A stretch of DNA of 64,000 bases from an uncultured Pelagibacteraceae bacterium (GTDB taxonomy: Bacteria; Pseudomonadota; Alphaproteobacteria; Pelagibacterales; Pelagibacteraceae): NCBI GenBank assembly GCA_902572475.1, contig CACGGB010000002.1:23998-87997 (forward strand). The letters run 5' to 3'. The position numbers were made by a program, and so were the translations under genes. This document shows, one piece after another, positions 17,541-34,713 of the stretch. The notes under the pieces are model-generated. The model saw only the letters and a program-made list of their open reading frames with translations. It was not told where the DNA came from and did no database searches. Each line of letters starts with the position of its first letter. Position 1 is the first letter of the stretch.

Positions 17541-17581
17541 GCTTGAAAACTTGAAAATATATTTATCGTCGTGCAAATAAA

Positions 17582-17604
17582 CCCCTGATTTTTTAAATCA
17601 GGGG
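17582..17604 (+). terminator. Bidirectional terminator-like hairpin after ugpQ
   Basis: CCCCTGATTT-TTT-AAATCAGGGG, 10-bp perfect stem between convergent genes. Confidence 0.75.
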
Positions 17605-17623
17605 CATTTAATTTATTTATAAA

Positions 17624-17821
17624 CTAATTATTTAAAGATGCTGTGATAGGTTCTTTATTTTTATTAGCTCTTTTTTCAGCGATTTTTTTCTCGATACTAG
17701 CTATCTTTAGATCAATCTTTGATAGTTTTTTTTGTTTAGTGCTTATCTTATTTTTAAGCTTATCGATTGATTTTAGTATTTTTTTCTTTTTCTTTTCGTT
17801 TTTTTTTAACTTTTTTTTCAT
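17624..17821 (-). CDS. Lysine-rich predicted coiled-coil protein, 65 aa
   Basis: ORF with strong SD-like GGAGGAACAATATG; Lys-rich heptad-like sequence. Confidence 0.6.
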   Translation of the reverse strand: MKKKLKKNEKKKKKILKSIDKLKNKISTKQKKLSKIDLKIASIEKKIAEKRANKNKEPITASLNN

Positions 17822-17923: not shown

Positions 17924-18820
17924 CTACGGAACTAATAAATTTATAAATCTGTCTGTTTTTTGGATCTCAAGACTGTTTACGTAACCACAATTTTCACCAT
18001 CAACCTGTGATAGAACTTTATTGTTTACACCATTTATTTTTAATCTGTTCAATTCTTTTTTAATTACACTTTTTGCAGGAGTTAAGTCGCCTTTGGTTAA
18101 AATTAACCAAACATAATAAAGTAATTTTATTCTGGTCAGGTCTTTAAATATGTAAGCTACTATCCTGTTTTCAAATATATTGGTATCATTTGTTATAGAA
18201 TGGGGACCAGCATAGTATTTTGAATTAGTACATAAAATCCAATCAGCCATAATTTTTTCATTATCTACCTCAACCTCCATTTTATTATTTTTTAAAAATA
18301 AAAAATGCTGAAAACCTTTTAAAGCGAAAATTACTTTTCCAAGATACTTTTTAATATTAGTATTTATGGACTCAACAATTCGAGAGTCAAAACCTACACC
18401 AGCCATCAAGAAAAAGTACTTATCATTTATTTTTGCTAATGAAATTTTCTTATGATTATCTGATACTAGGACGTTGTAAATCTCCTCCGCCTTTTTCTTA
18501 ATTTGAGTTTCTATTTGTAAAATATTTGCAGTGCCAGCAGGTATGTATCCAACTAATTTGTCTTTTAGATTATCACTTTTAAACATTTCATTAATACCAA
18601 AACATACGCTCCCGTCACCGCCAGCAAATACTAACCGATCAAATTTTTTATTAGACAATTCTTTAAATACATTCCTTGCATGATCTTCGCTTTCAGTTTT
18701 AAAAAGATCTACAATATGATTTTTTTCTAAAAGATTAATGACCTTGTTAATTAATTTAAGTTTTCTACCACCTGCTGCATTTGCGTTAAATATCACCGCA
18801 AAATTCAATTTTTTATTCAT
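17924..18820 (-). CDS. Diacylglycerol kinase family (YegS/DagK-like) lipid kinase
   Basis: ORF 298 aa; FNANAAGGRKLKLI, FAGGDGSVCFGINEMF, GYIPAGTANILQIE. Confidence 0.88.
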   Translation of the reverse strand: MNKKLNFAVIFNANAAGGRKLKLINKVINLLEKNHIVDLFKTESEDHARNVFKELSNKKFDRLVFAGGDGSVCFGINEMFKSDNLKDKLVGYIPAGTANILQIETQIKKKAEEIYNVLVSDNHKKISLAKINDKYFFLMAGVGFDSRIVESINTNIKKYLGKVIFALKGFQHFLFLKNNKMEVEVDNEKIMADWILCTNSKYYAGPHSITNDTNIFENRIVAYIFKDLTRIKLLYYVWLILTKGDLTPAKSVIKKELNRLKINGVNNKVLSQVDGENCGYVNSLEIQKTDRFINLLVP

Positions 18821-18821
18821 A

Positions 18822-18850
18822 TTTTAACAATTCTGTAACATATTTATGAT
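18822..18850. promoter_or_regulatory. Candidate Pho box array in the divergent DAG kinase/plcP promoter
   Basis: TTTTAAC-AATT-CTGTAAC-ATAT-TTATGAT: 7-mers separated by 4-bp A/T spacers (11-bp period), compare E. coli Pho box CTGTCAT repeats. Confidence 0.6.
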
Positions 18851-18884
18851 TCTACTTTTACTAGAGATTCGTTTTATAAAAAAT

Positions 18885-19700
18885 ATGGAAACAATTCAAA
18901 CTAAATCTAAGGGAAAGATTTTAAATTACAAAAGCATCTTTATTTCCGACTTGCACCTTGGGCATAGAAAAAGTGCAGCAAACAAATTATTAGAATTTTA
19001 CAAACATTCAAGGTCAGAGAATTTATACCTTGTTGGTGATATCATTGATGTTTGGGCTTTAAAAACAAAATTTTACTGGCCTCAAGAACATAATGATGTG
19101 ATTCAAAAAACATTAAGAAAAGCAAGACATGGAACAAAAGTAAAATATATTGTTGGAAATCATGATGATGTCTTCAGAAAATTTTTACCATTACATTTTG
19201 GCGATATTGAAGTTGTAAATAAAGCCATACATGTAAGCTCAGATAATAAAAAGTATATTGTTGTTCATGGTGATGCCTGGGATGGAGTCATGAAATATGC
19301 TCCATGGTTATCAAAAGTAGGAGCTGTCGCTTATAGTTTTTTACTTGAGTTTAATGTTGTTATCAATGTTTTTAGAAGATTATTTAAAAAGGGTAATTGG
19401 TCTTTAGCAAAATATTTAAAACACAAAGTAAAGAACGCTGTAAAATATATAGGTGATTATGAAAAAACTTTAGCAATTTATGCTAAAAGAAAAAATGTTG
19501 ATGGCATAATTTGCGGCCATATTCATCATTCTGCCGATCAAGTCTTAGATGGTGTGAGATATTTAAATTGTGGTGATTGGGTAGAAGGTGCAACTTTCTT
19601 AGTAGAACATTTTGATGGTCGCATGGAAGTTATTGACTGGGACAAAATCAGAGGTGATGTTGTTGATTACGAGCCGTATCTAAAAGTAGTAAATAAATAA
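18885..19700 (+). CDS. plcP: Calcineurin-like metallophosphoesterase; PlcP-type phospholipase C / LpxH-like
   Basis: DLHLGH, GDIIDVW, GNHDD, HGDAWD, CGHIHH motifs; next to GT4 glycosyltransferase; start ATG 18885 within ORF 18846-19700. Confidence 0.78.
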   Translation: METIQTKSKGKILNYKSIFISDLHLGHRKSAANKLLEFYKHSRSENLYLVGDIIDVWALKTKFYWPQEHNDVIQKTLRKARHGTKVKYIVGNHDDVFRKFLPLHFGDIEVVNKAIHVSSDNKKYIVVHGDAWDGVMKYAPWLSKVGAVAYSFLLEFNVVINVFRRLFKKGNWSLAKYLKHKVKNAVKYIGDYEKTLAIYAKRKNVDGIICGHIHHSADQVLDGVRYLNCGDWVEGATFLVEHFDGRMEVIDWDKIRGDVVDYEPYLKVVNK

Positions 19701-20708
19701 ATGAAGATTTTAATCGTTACTGATGCCTGGTATCCGCAAGTGAACGGTGTTTGTAGAACTTTAAAAAATCTTGGCGATGAATTAAAAAAAATTGGACATC
19801 AGGTTGAATATATTGAACCTAATCAATTTTTTACTGTGCCAATGCCAAAATATAATGAAATAAAACTTTCTATTAATGTTTGGCCTAGAGTAGGCAGATT
19901 AATTTCTAAAGCTGATGCTGACATAATTCACATAGCTACAGAAGGTCCGATAGGAATATTTGCAAAAAGATATTGTGTAAAAAGTAAGCTTAAGTTTACC
20001 ACGTCTTACCATACTCAATTTGATAAATATTTGAAGCTATACTATCCTTATTTGCCAATTAAGCTTGCTCAAAAGTTCCTTAAAGGATTTCACTCAAAGG
20101 CGGAAAAAATTTTAGTAACAACTCAGTCGATGAAAGATGAACTTCAAGAAATTGGTTTTGAAAAGGATAAGATGGTTGTTTGGACTAGAGGAGCAAACCA
20201 CGGGGCATTTCAAAAGCCTAAAAAGATTAATTTAGAGTATAAAAGACCAATTTATCTTTATGTGGGAAGAGTATCTATTGAAAAGAATATAAGAGCATTT
20301 CTGGATTTAGATTTAGAAGGTACGAAATTAGTTGTCGGTAAAGGACCTGATTTAGATAAACTAAAAAAAGAATATCCTGAAGCGATATTTAAAGGAGAGA
20401 GAACAAATGGTGAGCTTGCAAGTTACTTTGCTTCTTCTGATGTTTTTGTTTTCCCGAGCAAAACAGATACTTTTGGAATTGTAATTATAGAAGCTTTAAA
20501 ATGTGGATTGCCAGTAGCAGCGTACCCTGTTGCTGGACCAAAAGATATTTTTAACGGCACAAATATTGGCTCGTTAAACAACGATCTTAAAAAAGCAGCA
20601 CTTGAAGCTCTTAAGTCAGATAGAAGCGCTTGCATTGAGCATGCAAAAAAATATACCTGGGAAAATTGCGCAAAAATCTTTTTAAATAGTGCGGTATCAA
20701 ACCGCTAA
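19701..20708 (+). CDS. GT4-family glycosyltransferase, candidate glycolipid (DAG) glycosyltransferase Agt-like
   Basis: ORF 335 aa; TDAWYPQVNGVCRTLKNL, YVGRVSIEKNIRAFLDL, FPSKTDTFGIVIIEALKCGLPVAAYPVAGP. Confidence 0.82.
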   Translation: MKILIVTDAWYPQVNGVCRTLKNLGDELKKIGHQVEYIEPNQFFTVPMPKYNEIKLSINVWPRVGRLISKADADIIHIATEGPIGIFAKRYCVKSKLKFTTSYHTQFDKYLKLYYPYLPIKLAQKFLKGFHSKAEKILVTTQSMKDELQEIGFEKDKMVVWTRGANHGAFQKPKKINLEYKRPIYLYVGRVSIEKNIRAFLDLDLEGTKLVVGKGPDLDKLKKEYPEAIFKGERTNGELASYFASSDVFVFPSKTDTFGIVIIEALKCGLPVAAYPVAGPKDIFNGTNIGSLNNDLKKAALEALKSDRSACIEHAKKYTWENCAKIFLNSAVSNR

Positions 20709-20750: not shown

Positions 20751-21947
20751 ATGGAATTATTATTTTACTCTCTTGCTGGAATAATTGTGATCGTAGTAAT
20801 TGTAGTATCTAGAAAATCAATTGTAGCAGGTATGGAGGCAAGATCCGATATTAAGAGAGAGAACAAACCAAGTAATAATGAAGAGGGAATAGAAGACATC
20901 ACCAATGAAAATATTGAAAAAACTAATGAGCAAGTAAAGATTATAAATCAAATCGATGATCTAATTTTAATTGTAGATAAATTTAAAAATATCAAATTTT
21001 TTAATAGTAGTGCAAAAAAAAAATTTGGAGAAAATAATTTAAATAAGCACGTGGCTACTTTATTGAGAGTTCCTGATTTACTCCAAAATATTGATTTAGT
21101 GCTTTTAAAAAAAGAGACAATTACTATGGATTTAGAATTATCCTCTCCCTCATTTCAGTTCTTTAAAGTTCATCTATTCTCTGGACCGACCTCATATGTC
21201 GATGATCCTGACTCAGTTGTTTTATTTCTAAAAGATTTAACTGATATTATAAAAGCGCAAAGGTTCAAATCTGATTTTGTAGCCAATGTAAGCCATGAAC
21301 TTAAAACGCCTTTAGTTTCTATTAAAGGATTTCTAGAAACTATAAGCGGACATGCGAAAGATGATTTAGAAGCACAAAAAAAATTCATACCGATAATGCT
21401 TGAGCAAGCTGATAGGATGGAAAGCTTAATTAAAGATTTACTTTCATTAAGTAGAATTGAGTTAGAGGAACATATACAGCCTCAAGATAAAGTAAATTTA
21501 AAAGAAATTTTAAGTAACGTTGAAGACATCCATCAAAAAAATTTAAAATCTTTTGAATTTAAAAATAATATAAAAGATGATTTCTTTATTAAAGGCGATC
21601 ATGAAAAATTAATTGAAGTTTTTTCAAATATTATTGATAACAGTATAAAATATTCAGAAAAAAATAAAAAGATCGAAGTTAATTGTGGGCAAGGTAACGG
21701 AAAAGTAATAGGAGACTCTTATACCGTGTCCATTAAAGATAATGGTATTGGAATTCCAACTGAACAACTTCCGAGAATTACAGAAAGATTCTTTAGAGTT
21801 GATGCAGCTAAAAGTAAAAAAGTTGGTGGCACTGGACTTGGAATGGCGATCGTGAAGCACATTGTTAATCAGCATAGAGGTGAGTTAGAAATAAAAAGTG
21901 AGACTCAAAGGGGCACCGAAATAAAGGTTCACTTTTCTAAATTTTAG
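20751..21947 (+). CDS. phoR: Phosphate regulon sensor histidine kinase
   Basis: ORF 398 aa; N-terminal TM, PAS-like region, NVSHELKTPLVSIKGF H-box, DNGIGIP, GTGLGMAIVKHI; upstream of pst locus. Confidence 0.9.
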   Translation: MELLFYSLAGIIVIVVIVVSRKSIVAGMEARSDIKRENKPSNNEEGIEDITNENIEKTNEQVKIINQIDDLILIVDKFKNIKFFNSSAKKKFGENNLNKHVATLLRVPDLLQNIDLVLLKKETITMDLELSSPSFQFFKVHLFSGPTSYVDDPDSVVLFLKDLTDIIKAQRFKSDFVANVSHELKTPLVSIKGFLETISGHAKDDLEAQKKFIPIMLEQADRMESLIKDLLSLSRIELEEHIQPQDKVNLKEILSNVEDIHQKNLKSFEFKNNIKDDFFIKGDHEKLIEVFSNIIDNSIKYSEKNKKIEVNCGQGNGKVIGDSYTVSIKDNGIGIPTEQLPRITERFFRVDAAKSKKVGGTGLGMAIVKHIVNQHRGELEIKSETQRGTEIKVHFSKF

Positions 21948-22010: not shown

Positions 22011-22622
22011 ATGACTAGATTAATGAATTATATAAGTCTGGTTTTATTAACTTTAATTTTTACAACTGTTAAGGCAGATGTAAACTTAATTGAGAAAACT
22101 TTACGTTCTCAACCTCTTACAGTTTTTGATCTTGGACTTTTAAGACTTAAAAACGATCTTAGGCAAGCTAAAAACGATTTAGTTCTTGAAGTAGATAATA
22201 AAAATGTATCTACAATTTATACTGAAGCTATATTTTCTAGAAGAGACGATGGAATTCAATTAATTGTGTCAGCACCGATGAGCACTCATTTAAATGCTAA
22301 CTCGTACATGGTGGACTCAATTAAATGTAGAAAAATTTTTGAAAAAGTTAAAAATAATCTTTTAAAAGGACAAAACGAGAGCAATATGATTCACTCAAAA
22401 GCTGCATCTTATTTAAGTGAAGTATTCACCGCTCCAACACAATGGAATGCTTGGAGATATGATAAAAGTTTTACACAAAAATTAGTTAACTTTGTGCAAC
22501 TAGAAGTTACATTAAAGCCAACTCAATCCTACGCAGTTAAAAATAAAGTAAGACCTTTTAGTTGCGGAGGGTCTTTAGCCTCTGATTATCAACAAATCGA
22601 GATAACTAGAAAGTTCAACTAA
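22011..22622 (+). CDS. Secreted/periplasmic protein of unknown function between phoR and pstS
   Basis: ORF 203 aa; N-terminal hydrophobic signal-like segment (YISLVLLTLIFTTVKA). Confidence 0.75.
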   Translation: MTRLMNYISLVLLTLIFTTVKADVNLIEKTLRSQPLTVFDLGLLRLKNDLRQAKNDLVLEVDNKNVSTIYTEAIFSRRDDGIQLIVSAPMSTHLNANSYMVDSIKCRKIFEKVKNNLLKGQNESNMIHSKAASYLSEVFTAPTQWNAWRYDKSFTQKLVNFVQLEVTLKPTQSYAVKNKVRPFSCGGSLASDYQQIEITRKFN

Positions 22623-22632
22623 AAAGTTATCA

Positions 22633-22661
22633 TTTTAATAAATTTGTAACATATCTGTAAT
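22633..22661 (+). promoter_or_regulatory. Candidate Pho box array upstream of pstS
   Basis: TTTTAAT-AAAT-TTGTAAC-ATAT-CTGTAAT: three 7-mers with 11-bp period, 69 nt upstream of the pstS start. Confidence 0.7.
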
Positions 22662-22729: not shown

Positions 22730-23734
22730 ATGAAAAAACTATCAATCGCTTTAGCTTCATTAGTTGCAATGTTAGTTGTAACTTCTGCTCAAGCTAGAGA
22801 TCAGATTAAAATCGTAGGTTCTTCAACTGTATTCCCTTATGCAACAATCGTTGCTGAAAGATTTGGTTCGTCTGGTAAATTTAAAACACCAGTAATCGAG
22901 TCAACAGGAACAGGTGGTGGAGCTAAATTATTCTGTGCTGGAGTTGGTACAGAGCACCCAGACATAACAAATGCATCTAGAGCTATGAAGGCTAAAGAGT
23001 ATGCGCTATGTCAAAAAAATGGTGTTGAAGAAATCGTAGAGATTACAGTTGGTAACGACGGAATAACGTTAGCTTATTCTAAAGATGCTAAACCAGTAAA
23101 CTTTACAAAAAAACAATTATGGGCAGCATTAGCAAAAGAGGTTGCTAAAGATGGTGCGTTAGTACCAAATCCATATAAAAATTGGAGTGATATCGACCCA
23201 TCATTACCAAACTACCCTATCAAAGTTATGGTGCCTCCAGGAACATCAGGAACAAGAGATGCTTGGAATTCATTAGTAATGAAAAAAGGTATCGATGATG
23301 CTTCCAAAAAAGCTGGCGCTAAATATAAAGCGTTAAGAGAAGATGGTGCGGTAATTGAAGTTGGTGAGAACGACTCACTTATTATTCAAAAATTAGCTGC
23401 GGACAAAGAAATGTTCGGTTTCTTTGGTTTCAGTTATTTCTTAGCTGCAAAAGATAAATTGCAAGCTGCAAGCATTGAAGGTGGTCAACCAAGTCTATCT
23501 TCGATTCAAGATTACAGTTACGCAGTTGCAAGACCTTTATTCTTCTATGTGAAAAAAGCTCACGTGGGCGTTGTACCTGGCTTACATGAATTCGTAAAAG
23601 AGTTCACAAGTAAAAAAGCTATGGGTAATAAAGGTTATTTAACTGATATCGGGCTAGTACCTCTAGATGGCAAGTTATACAAAACATCTAGAACTAACGC
23701 TACGAAGTTAGTTAACATGCCTGCTAAGAAGTAG
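22730..23734 (+). CDS. pstS: Phosphate ABC transporter substrate-binding protein
   Basis: ORF 334 aa; signal peptide, IKIVGSSTVFPYATIVAERF, GTGGGAKLFCAG, PPGTSGTRDAW. Confidence 0.96.
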   Translation: MKKLSIALASLVAMLVVTSAQARDQIKIVGSSTVFPYATIVAERFGSSGKFKTPVIESTGTGGGAKLFCAGVGTEHPDITNASRAMKAKEYALCQKNGVEEIVEITVGNDGITLAYSKDAKPVNFTKKQLWAALAKEVAKDGALVPNPYKNWSDIDPSLPNYPIKVMVPPGTSGTRDAWNSLVMKKGIDDASKKAGAKYKALREDGAVIEVGENDSLIIQKLAADKEMFGFFGFSYFLAAKDKLQAASIEGGQPSLSSIQDYSYAVARPLFFYVKKAHVGVVPGLHEFVKEFTSKKAMGNKGYLTDIGLVPLDGKLYKTSRTNATKLVNMPAKK

Positions 23735-27190: not shown

Positions 27191-27870
27191 TGAGTGAAAA
27201 ACCGCACATTGTAAAATCTTACGAAGAGCAACTTCAGTTATTAAAAGATACAATAGTGAAAATGGGAACTGGAGTTGAGAAACAGCTTGAAAACACTATT
27301 CAATCTTTAGTTAAAAAAGACATTAGTTTAGCAGAAAAATCTATCAAAGATGACGAATTGACTGATAAGTATGAAATAAATATAGAAGAGCAAGTTGTAA
27401 ATTTGATTGCCTTAAGGCAACCTATGGCAATAGATTTAAGAGAAACAGTTGTTGCCTTAAAAGTTTCTTCAGACTTAGAGAGAATTGGTGATTTAGCAAA
27501 AAACATCTCAAAACGATTAACTAAAATTGGAACTGATTTACCTAATGATATTACTAAAAATTTCGAAATAGCTGGTTTAAAAGCATCAAAACAAGTCAAT
27601 GCAGTTTTAAATTCGTATTTACATAGAGCTAAAGATACAGCAGAAAATGTTTGGAATTCTGATGAAGAAATAGATCAAATGACTAATTCTAATATGGAAG
27701 CTGCAGTAAAGCATTTAGAAAAAAATAAAAACGATGTACAAAAAGTAACCCAACTACTTTTCATGCTTAAAAATATTGAGAGGATTGGAGATCATGCAAC
27801 CAATATTGCAGAGCAAGTTTATTTTCTGATTACAGGAGATTATTTAGAGGGAGACCGACCAAAAGGATAA
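27190..27870 (+). CDS. phoU: Phosphate signaling complex protein PhoU
   Basis: ORF 226 aa; RQPMAIDLRETVVALKVSSDLERIGDLAKNI, NIERIGDHATNIAE. Confidence 0.96.
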   Translation: MSEKPHIVKSYEEQLQLLKDTIVKMGTGVEKQLENTIQSLVKKDISLAEKSIKDDELTDKYEINIEEQVVNLIALRQPMAIDLRETVVALKVSSDLERIGDLAKNISKRLTKIGTDLPNDITKNFEIAGLKASKQVNAVLNSYLHRAKDTAENVWNSDEEIDQMTNSNMEAAVKHLEKNKNDVQKVTQLLFMLKNIERIGDHATNIAEQVYFLITGDYLEGDRPKG

Positions 27871-28553
27871 TGAGGGCAAATTTATTCATTGTTGAAGATG
27901 AAATACCCATCGTAACTTTACTTAAATACAATTTAGAAAAAGAGGGTCACAAAGTTGATTATGCAGTCAATGGAGAAGACGCTATTAGAAATATAAAGGA
28001 AAAAAATCCTGATTTAATTTTATTAGATTGGATGTTGCCAGATATTTCAGGTGTTGAAGTCTGTAAAAATTTGAAAAGAAGCAATCTTCACAAAAATATC
28101 CCAATCATTATGTTAACAGCCAAAGGTGAGGAAGAAGACAAACTTAAAGGATTTGAAACAGGAGCTGATGACTACGTAACTAAGCCATTCAGCCAAAAAG
28201 AACTTATTGCAAGAGTTAACGCTTTATTAAAGAGATCTAAACCAAGTGTTGCCGCTGATGTTGTAGTATTTGAGGATCTTAAAGTAGATAGAGTTCAACG
28301 AAGAGTTTATAGAGCAGATAAACAAGTTATAGTTGGCCCAACCGAATTTAAACTAATTGATTTTTTAATAAAGAATCCAAAAAGAGTATATTCGCGTGAG
28401 CAACTTCTAAATTCTGTATGGGGAGATGATATTTATGTTGAGTCCAGAACTATAGATGTTCATATAAGAAGACTAAGAAAAGCAATAAATATTGATGGCA
28501 AGAAAGATCTTATCAGAACAGTAAGATCTGCTGGCTATTCCTTAGATGTTTGA
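27870..28553 (+). CDS. phoB: Phosphate regulon response regulator
   Basis: ORF 227 aa; receiver domain LDWMLPDISG, TAKGEEEDKLKGFETGADDYVTKPFS, OmpR-type winged helix C-terminus. Confidence 0.95.
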   Translation: MRANLFIVEDEIPIVTLLKYNLEKEGHKVDYAVNGEDAIRNIKEKNPDLILLDWMLPDISGVEVCKNLKRSNLHKNIPIIMLTAKGEEEDKLKGFETGADDYVTKPFSQKELIARVNALLKRSKPSVAADVVVFEDLKVDRVQRRVYRADKQVIVGPTEFKLIDFLIKNPKRVYSREQLLNSVWGDDIYVESRTIDVHIRRLRKAINIDGKKDLIRTVRSAGYSLDV

Positions 28554-34218: not shown

Positions 34219-34713
34219 TTAACCAGACGAGGCTTTAACTTTTTTCTCGATAAATTCTGGTATCTCATCACCAAGATCATCGTCTTTTTGATTTTTAGGT
34301 TGAAAGGCATACAAAACATGAAGTTTGCAATAAGGAAAATCTCCTTCAGGCTTTCTACCGCAAAAATAGAATTTCTCCTCATTAGGATGACCGATAGGCC
34401 ACTTGCATGTTTCATCTGTTAGTTCTTCAAGTGATTTCGGGTTTTCTGGCTCAAAGTTTTTATCTAATAATATTGATTGAAATTTAGCTTTTCTTGATGT
34501 CGGCGCGGGTCCTCTTCTAATCTGCTTATTATCATTGGTTCTAGGTGAATTAGATTGCTTAGAAGGGGCTCTAGCTTCTAAATTTAATCTATGAGCTTTT
34601 CCAATTACTGCGTTTCTAGTGGTGTCACCTAGTTCTTCGGCTATCTGACTTGCAGTATGCCCTTTTGACCAGAGTTCTTTTAATTTAGCGACTTTTTCTT
34701 CTGTCCAACTCAT
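34219..34713 (-). CDS. gcrA: GcrA cell cycle regulator
   Basis: ORF 164 aa; MSWTEEKVAKLKELWSKGHTASQIAEELGDTTRNAVIGKAHRLNL, C-terminal CKWPIGHP...YCKLH. Confidence 0.94.
   Translation of the reverse strand: MSWTEEKVAKLKELWSKGHTASQIAEELGDTTRNAVIGKAHRLNLEARAPSKQSNSPRTNDNKQIRRGPAPTSRKAKFQSILLDKNFEPENPKSLEELTDETCKWPIGHPNEEKFYFCGRKPEGDFPYCKLHVLYAFQPKNQKDDDLGDEIPEFIEKKVKASSG

Follow-up and report, generated by a model that had tools for sequence, protein, structure and literature searches.

A probable PhoB-activated plcP-agt promoter adjoining a divergent DAGK-family lipid kinase gene in Pelagibacteraceae

Pho boxes have been predicted for the plcP gene clusters of marine bacteria (Sebastian et al. 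2016, PMC4796936), and the type of site analysed here is thus already known. In the SAR11 strain HTCC7211 both PlcP and Agt are functional, and the release of diacylglycerol (DAG) from phospholipids by PlcP was demonstrated by complementation (PMC4796936). The plcP(-agt) promoters of that study resemble the present locus in having plcP followed by agt and predicted Pho boxes. However, in the accessible portions of that paper no discussion was found of a divergent kinase, a shared 64-bp region or the position of an array relative to the kinase. The phosphate islands of HIMB59 contain a DGK gene, an LpxH-annotated gene and an RfaG-annotated gene together with pst and phoBR (PMC10734472), and these three are perhaps, by homology, the kinase, plcP and agt. 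They are given as island content, and the available part of the source yielded no promoter or DAG-switch analysis. PlcP and DagK of Pseudomonas putida BIRD-1 are induced together upon Pi depletion (PMC5082522); the likeness to our locus lies in this phosphate-starvation lipid response.

The stretch of DNA analysed here (the window) is 64 kb long. It belongs to G000, a Pelagibacteraceae (SAR11) genome of 710 kb in 31 contigs and 58% completeness. Its genes are ordered ugpBAEC, a GDPD phosphodiesterase gene, a DAGK-family kinase gene on the minus strand, plcP, agt, phoR, an unassigned gene, pstSCAB, phoU and phoB, among which pstCAB were assigned by position. The plcP gene (18885..19700, plus strand) encodes a metallophosphoesterase of the phospholipase C type, which scores above the cut-off of PF00149 and is 68% identical to PlcP of G095, a genome that we take to be probably HTCC7211. 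It is a calcineurin-like phosphoesterase gene beside agt, and its matches to the LpxH equivalogs fall far below cut-off. The adjoining agt (19701..20708, plus strand) encodes a GT4 glycosyltransferase with 66% identity to that of G095. The sensor kinase gene phoR (20751..21947, plus strand) matches TIGR02966 with 7.7e-89, below the cut-off of that model, and phoB (27870..28553, plus strand), the presumed trans-acting regulator, reaches 327.7 bits with TIGR02154 (cut-off 296.2).

Several further features were observed in this neighbourhood. The gene between phoR and pstS (22011-22622, plus strand; 203 aa) has no Pfam or NCBIfam match and is found at this position in several genera, with 34-52% identity. 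In G095 olsB-like and olsA-like acyltransferase genes lie between phoR and agt-plcP (L294:6417-7981); G067 also has two similar ORFs, and the window lacks such genes at the equivalent place. A small lysine-rich ORF of about 60 codons, under the ORF cut-off, is located downstream of the kinase gene (about 17630-17821, minus strand) and preceded by GGAGGAAC. A strong stem-loop at 17581-17605, usable as a bidirectional terminator, separates the GDPD gene from the sequence downstream of the kinase gene.

The complement of the kinase ATG ends at 18820 and the plcP ATG begins at 18885. As an earlier note on this DNA had claimed, the 64-bp gap between them (18821-18884) holds a PhoB-type array, TTTTAAC-AATT-CTGTAAC-ATAT-TTATGAT (18822..18850, plus strand). 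Its three 7-bp direct repeats are set at an 11-bp pitch, point toward plcP and resemble the CTGTMAT consensus; repeat 3 (TTATGAT) deviates from it. The array is not centred in the gap, as had been stated, but lies 1 nt from the kinase ATG and 34 nt before the plcP ATG. Its geometry equals that of the reference pstS array, TTTTAAT-AAAT-TTGTAAC-ATAT-CTGTAAT (22633..22661, plus strand), upstream of pstS (22730..23734, plus strand). The two promoters share the three repeats, their pitch, order and orientation, and a pair of GANTC sites 13 nt apart on the downstream side, whereas the pstS promoter differs in its canonical repeat 3 (CTGTAAT) and in an upstream neighbour that is not a divergent lipid kinase gene. 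A possible weak fourth repeat, TTTTATT (18811..18817, plus strand), lies upstream in the same register, a little way into the kinase coding sequence, where the shifted matrix match at 18811 reaches 18.7 bits; an extra in-register repeat is also seen in genera g10, g12 and g15.

No sigma-70-like promoter could be recognised on either strand of the 64-bp gap for either gene. A putative -10 element of plcP is placed at TAGAGAT (18862..18868, plus strand), a conserved block 11 nt past repeat 3 that does not match the sigma-70 consensus, because the homologous array of locus L186 is followed by TATAGT at the same 11-nt spacing. A mechanical ORF caller had put the plcP start at 18846. The frame from there is broken in relatives before the ATG at 18885, by a stop in loci of the L114 type (PlcP 70% identical) and by a 1-bp deletion in L089, so that the real start is 18885 and the 64-bp gap stands.

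With up to 3 mismatches allowed, the exact three-part pattern has a single match in the 64-kb window and none in 100 shuffles. A scoring matrix was derived from pstS arrays only, 10 distinct ones found in this genome and its relatives, and plcP sequences were kept out of it. When both strands of the 710-kb genome were scanned with this pstS-only matrix, the plcP array ranked second with 27.4 bits, behind the pstS array (37.2 bits, itself a training sequence) and ahead of the best unrelated site with 17.2 bits. The best score from 20 Markov genomes of the same size was 21.8 bits. For the less strict Pho pattern of two repeats the window gives 28 matches where 24 are expected, which is not significant, and the signal is therefore carried by the three-repeat geometry.

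The 50-bp footprint starting at 18822 retains 37 to 46 of its bases in six of the seven comparison sequences and 30 in the seventh, and in distant genera the identity at fourfold-degenerate sites of the flanking genes is only 0.34-0.51. Conspicuous blocks are TTTAACA, CTGTAACA, ATGATTC and TAGAGATTCG. Repeats 1 and 2 are retained in genus g7, where repeat 3 is loose, the downstream part is longer and several arrays score low (2-11 bits). Every array reads toward plcP, the kinase-ward strand of the 20 intergenic sequences tested scores at most 5.6 bits, and no minus-strand PhoB site for the kinase gene was found in any genus. The array is still present upstream of plcP at three loci that lack an adjacent kinase gene (L225, L231, L232). 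At L186 the kinase gene is divergent to ugpB instead of plcP, and the array is again directed away from it. The array of L047 (genome G029) is eroded beside an intact kinase ORF; phoR is gone from this site and no pstS was found in the genome. Finally, the kinase gene of genus g8 faces phoR and there is no array. Taken together, the orientation, the kinase-less loci, L186, L047 and g8 show that the array belongs to the gene in the plus direction. The clear array at L186 (G395:C8), followed by TATAGT, also places the ugp operon there under the same promoter type; no such array is found upstream of ugpB in the window.

We consider it highly probable that 18821-18884 is a PhoB-activated promoter for plcP-agt. 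Upon phosphate starvation PhoB~P would bind the 29-bp direct-repeat array, which would replace a -35 element, and would recruit RNA polymerase to the putative -10 element at about 18862-18868, yielding a transcript with a short plcP leader. PlcP would then make DAG from phospholipids and Agt would glycosylate it, as is known for the HTCC7211 proteins. The product of the divergent kinase gene is probably a partner in function that deals with the DAG so made, as the near-perfect co-occurrence of the genes suggests.

The kinase gene (17924..18820, minus strand) encodes a lipid kinase of the DAGK_cat family (PF00781, 3e-21, 75.6 bits against a cut-off of 23.6). The earlier name of DAG kinase agrees with this match but is not reached by any NCBIfam model, as the protein falls below every cut-off, including those of all equivalogs (TIGR00147, 103.4 bits against 118.65). 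Its nearest relative of solved structure is DgkB (2qv7, 8e-14), and it carries GGDGS in accordance with the motif GGDG[ST]. A catalytic role is attributed to C-terminal acidic residues, in the DG loop and in DGE, of DgkB/YegS-type kinases. The window protein retains DGE and has EN at the DG loop, and the SAR11 homologues differ from one another at both places. It seems reasonable to call the protein a putative DAG kinase.

Among 397 Pelagibacteraceae genomes the kinase gene is present in 177, plcP in 176 and both in 167; of the 10 and 9 singletons, several begin at contig ends. The Fisher test of this co-occurrence gives a p value of 2e-86, which is inflated by shared ancestry and shared island membership; the pairing is nevertheless real. 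The kinase gene is the divergent neighbour in 80 of 82 plcP loci, and the remaining two loci run into a contig end. Divergent adjacency is seen in g1, g5, g7, g10, g12 and g15; in one g15 genome (G083) the two genes are on separate contigs. The distance from the array to the kinase ATG is 0-23 nt in every adjacent pair measured and falls into classes of 0-1, 6 and 15-23 nt. Two g7 genomes (L187, L189) deviate around the kinase start, and their start codon is uncertain. As far as we found, the conserved divergent pairing of plcP and the kinase gene has not been described earlier as a regulatory unit.

The earlier note had read the gap as a DAG-flux switch, in which PhoB drives one direction and represses the other. 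The array toward plcP, the plcP-agt pair, the tightly linked kinase-family gene and the PhoB and PhoR genes a few kb downstream bear out one side of this reading. On the kinase side, with the array 0-23 nt from the start codon, bound PhoB would most likely hinder rather than help transcription; that it does so is a tentative proposal, to which we give somewhat less than an even chance. Occlusion at this distance is physically plausible, since the array would overlap any initiation signals that the gap contains. The full switch, in which PhoB~P activates plcP-agt and represses the kinase gene by covering its promoter or start, is likewise a possibility that falls a little short of even. DAG would then flow to glycolipid in starvation and return to phosphatidate when phosphate is plentiful. 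Co-occurrence in 167 of the 397 genomes and the divergent layout of nearly all plcP loci favour such a switch. However, PlcP and DagK were both enriched in P. putida upon Pi depletion in a PHO-dependent manner (PMC5082522), and their joint rise argues against opposite directions. DAG is a presumed substrate of the kinase, no kinase promoter is recognised in the gap, and the distance between array and kinase gene varies among the classes given above. Among the matches listed in our literature search, no direct precedent was found for PhoB repressing a divergent diacylglycerol gene.

The kinase may instead be a PhoB-independent housekeeping enzyme of DAG salvage whose gene happens to adjoin the island, with the divergent layout a matter of packing in a compact genome, which appears possible at roughly one chance in three. 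The intact ORF in G029, a genome that lacks pst and has an eroded array, and the g8 kinase gene that adjoins phoR without an array are in line with this explanation. It is at odds with the rarity, within the family, of kinase genes unaccompanied by plcP (10 of 177).

Co-induction, in which both directions rise in starvation and the kinase limits a toxic build-up of DAG, is the behaviour that the P. putida BIRD-1 proteins suggest (PMC5082522), and we consider it rather unlikely for SAR11. No PhoB site is oriented toward the kinase gene in any genus, and activation of this gene by PhoB from the array is unlikely for this reason. Carini 2015 reportedly found a four-gene cluster that is up-regulated by starvation. 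As plcP-agt adjoin olsB-olsA in G095, these four genes would fill such a cluster without the kinase gene.

A layer of DNA methylation on the Pho promoters is also possible. The motif of CcrM-type methylation, GANTC, occurs twice as GATTC beside the plcP array, at 18848..18852 and, 13 nt after this site, at 18866..18870. The pairs with this N13 spacing downstream of the two Pho arrays (18848/18866, to 18870; 22668/22686, to 22690) are the only ones in the window. Most genera retain the two sites at plcP; in some the spacing is N12 or N11, or one site stands alone. At pstS, some relatives have lost the second site. GANTC is rarer in the window than the Markov expectation (103 against 183), and it is 1.7 times denser between genes than inside genes genome-wide. 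The N13 spacing was noticed post hoc, and its 6 pairs in the genome against 1.7 expected are not significant over about 40 spacings, as N25 also gives 6; the remaining four N13 pairs are within ORFs. GcrA (34219-34713) and a CcrM-like methylase on contig 1, with a RAMA domain and a DPPYN motif, are both encoded, and GANTC sites are present in the promoter. At a phosphate-regulated promoter of Caulobacter, PhoB changes the methylation of GANTC (PMC5172544). A paper on GcrA yielded, in its available portions, no usable rule for the position of GANTC. The methylation idea is kept as a lead because of the post hoc spacing, the lack of genome-wide enrichment and the loss of the second pstS site in some relatives. 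It is quite improbable that SAR11 lipid remodelling is tied to phosphate and DNA methylation at once, with the array activating plcP-agt and shutting off the kinase gene while the GANTC pair, as at pstS, is under CcrM/GcrA. Least probable by far is a chance match of AT-rich sequence, which the chance-level frequency of the loose Pho pattern in the window might suggest and which is contradicted by the genome-wide rank of the array, the conservation of its footprint and its persistence with plcP.

SAR11 are among the most abundant cells of the ocean and possess very few transcription regulators, and for these reasons the balance they strike between phospholipids and lipids free of phosphorus matters for the use of phosphorus in the ocean. 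If our reading is true, one conserved PhoB array would be common to genes that make DAG and genes that probably consume it, and this balance would be testable in cultivated relatives.
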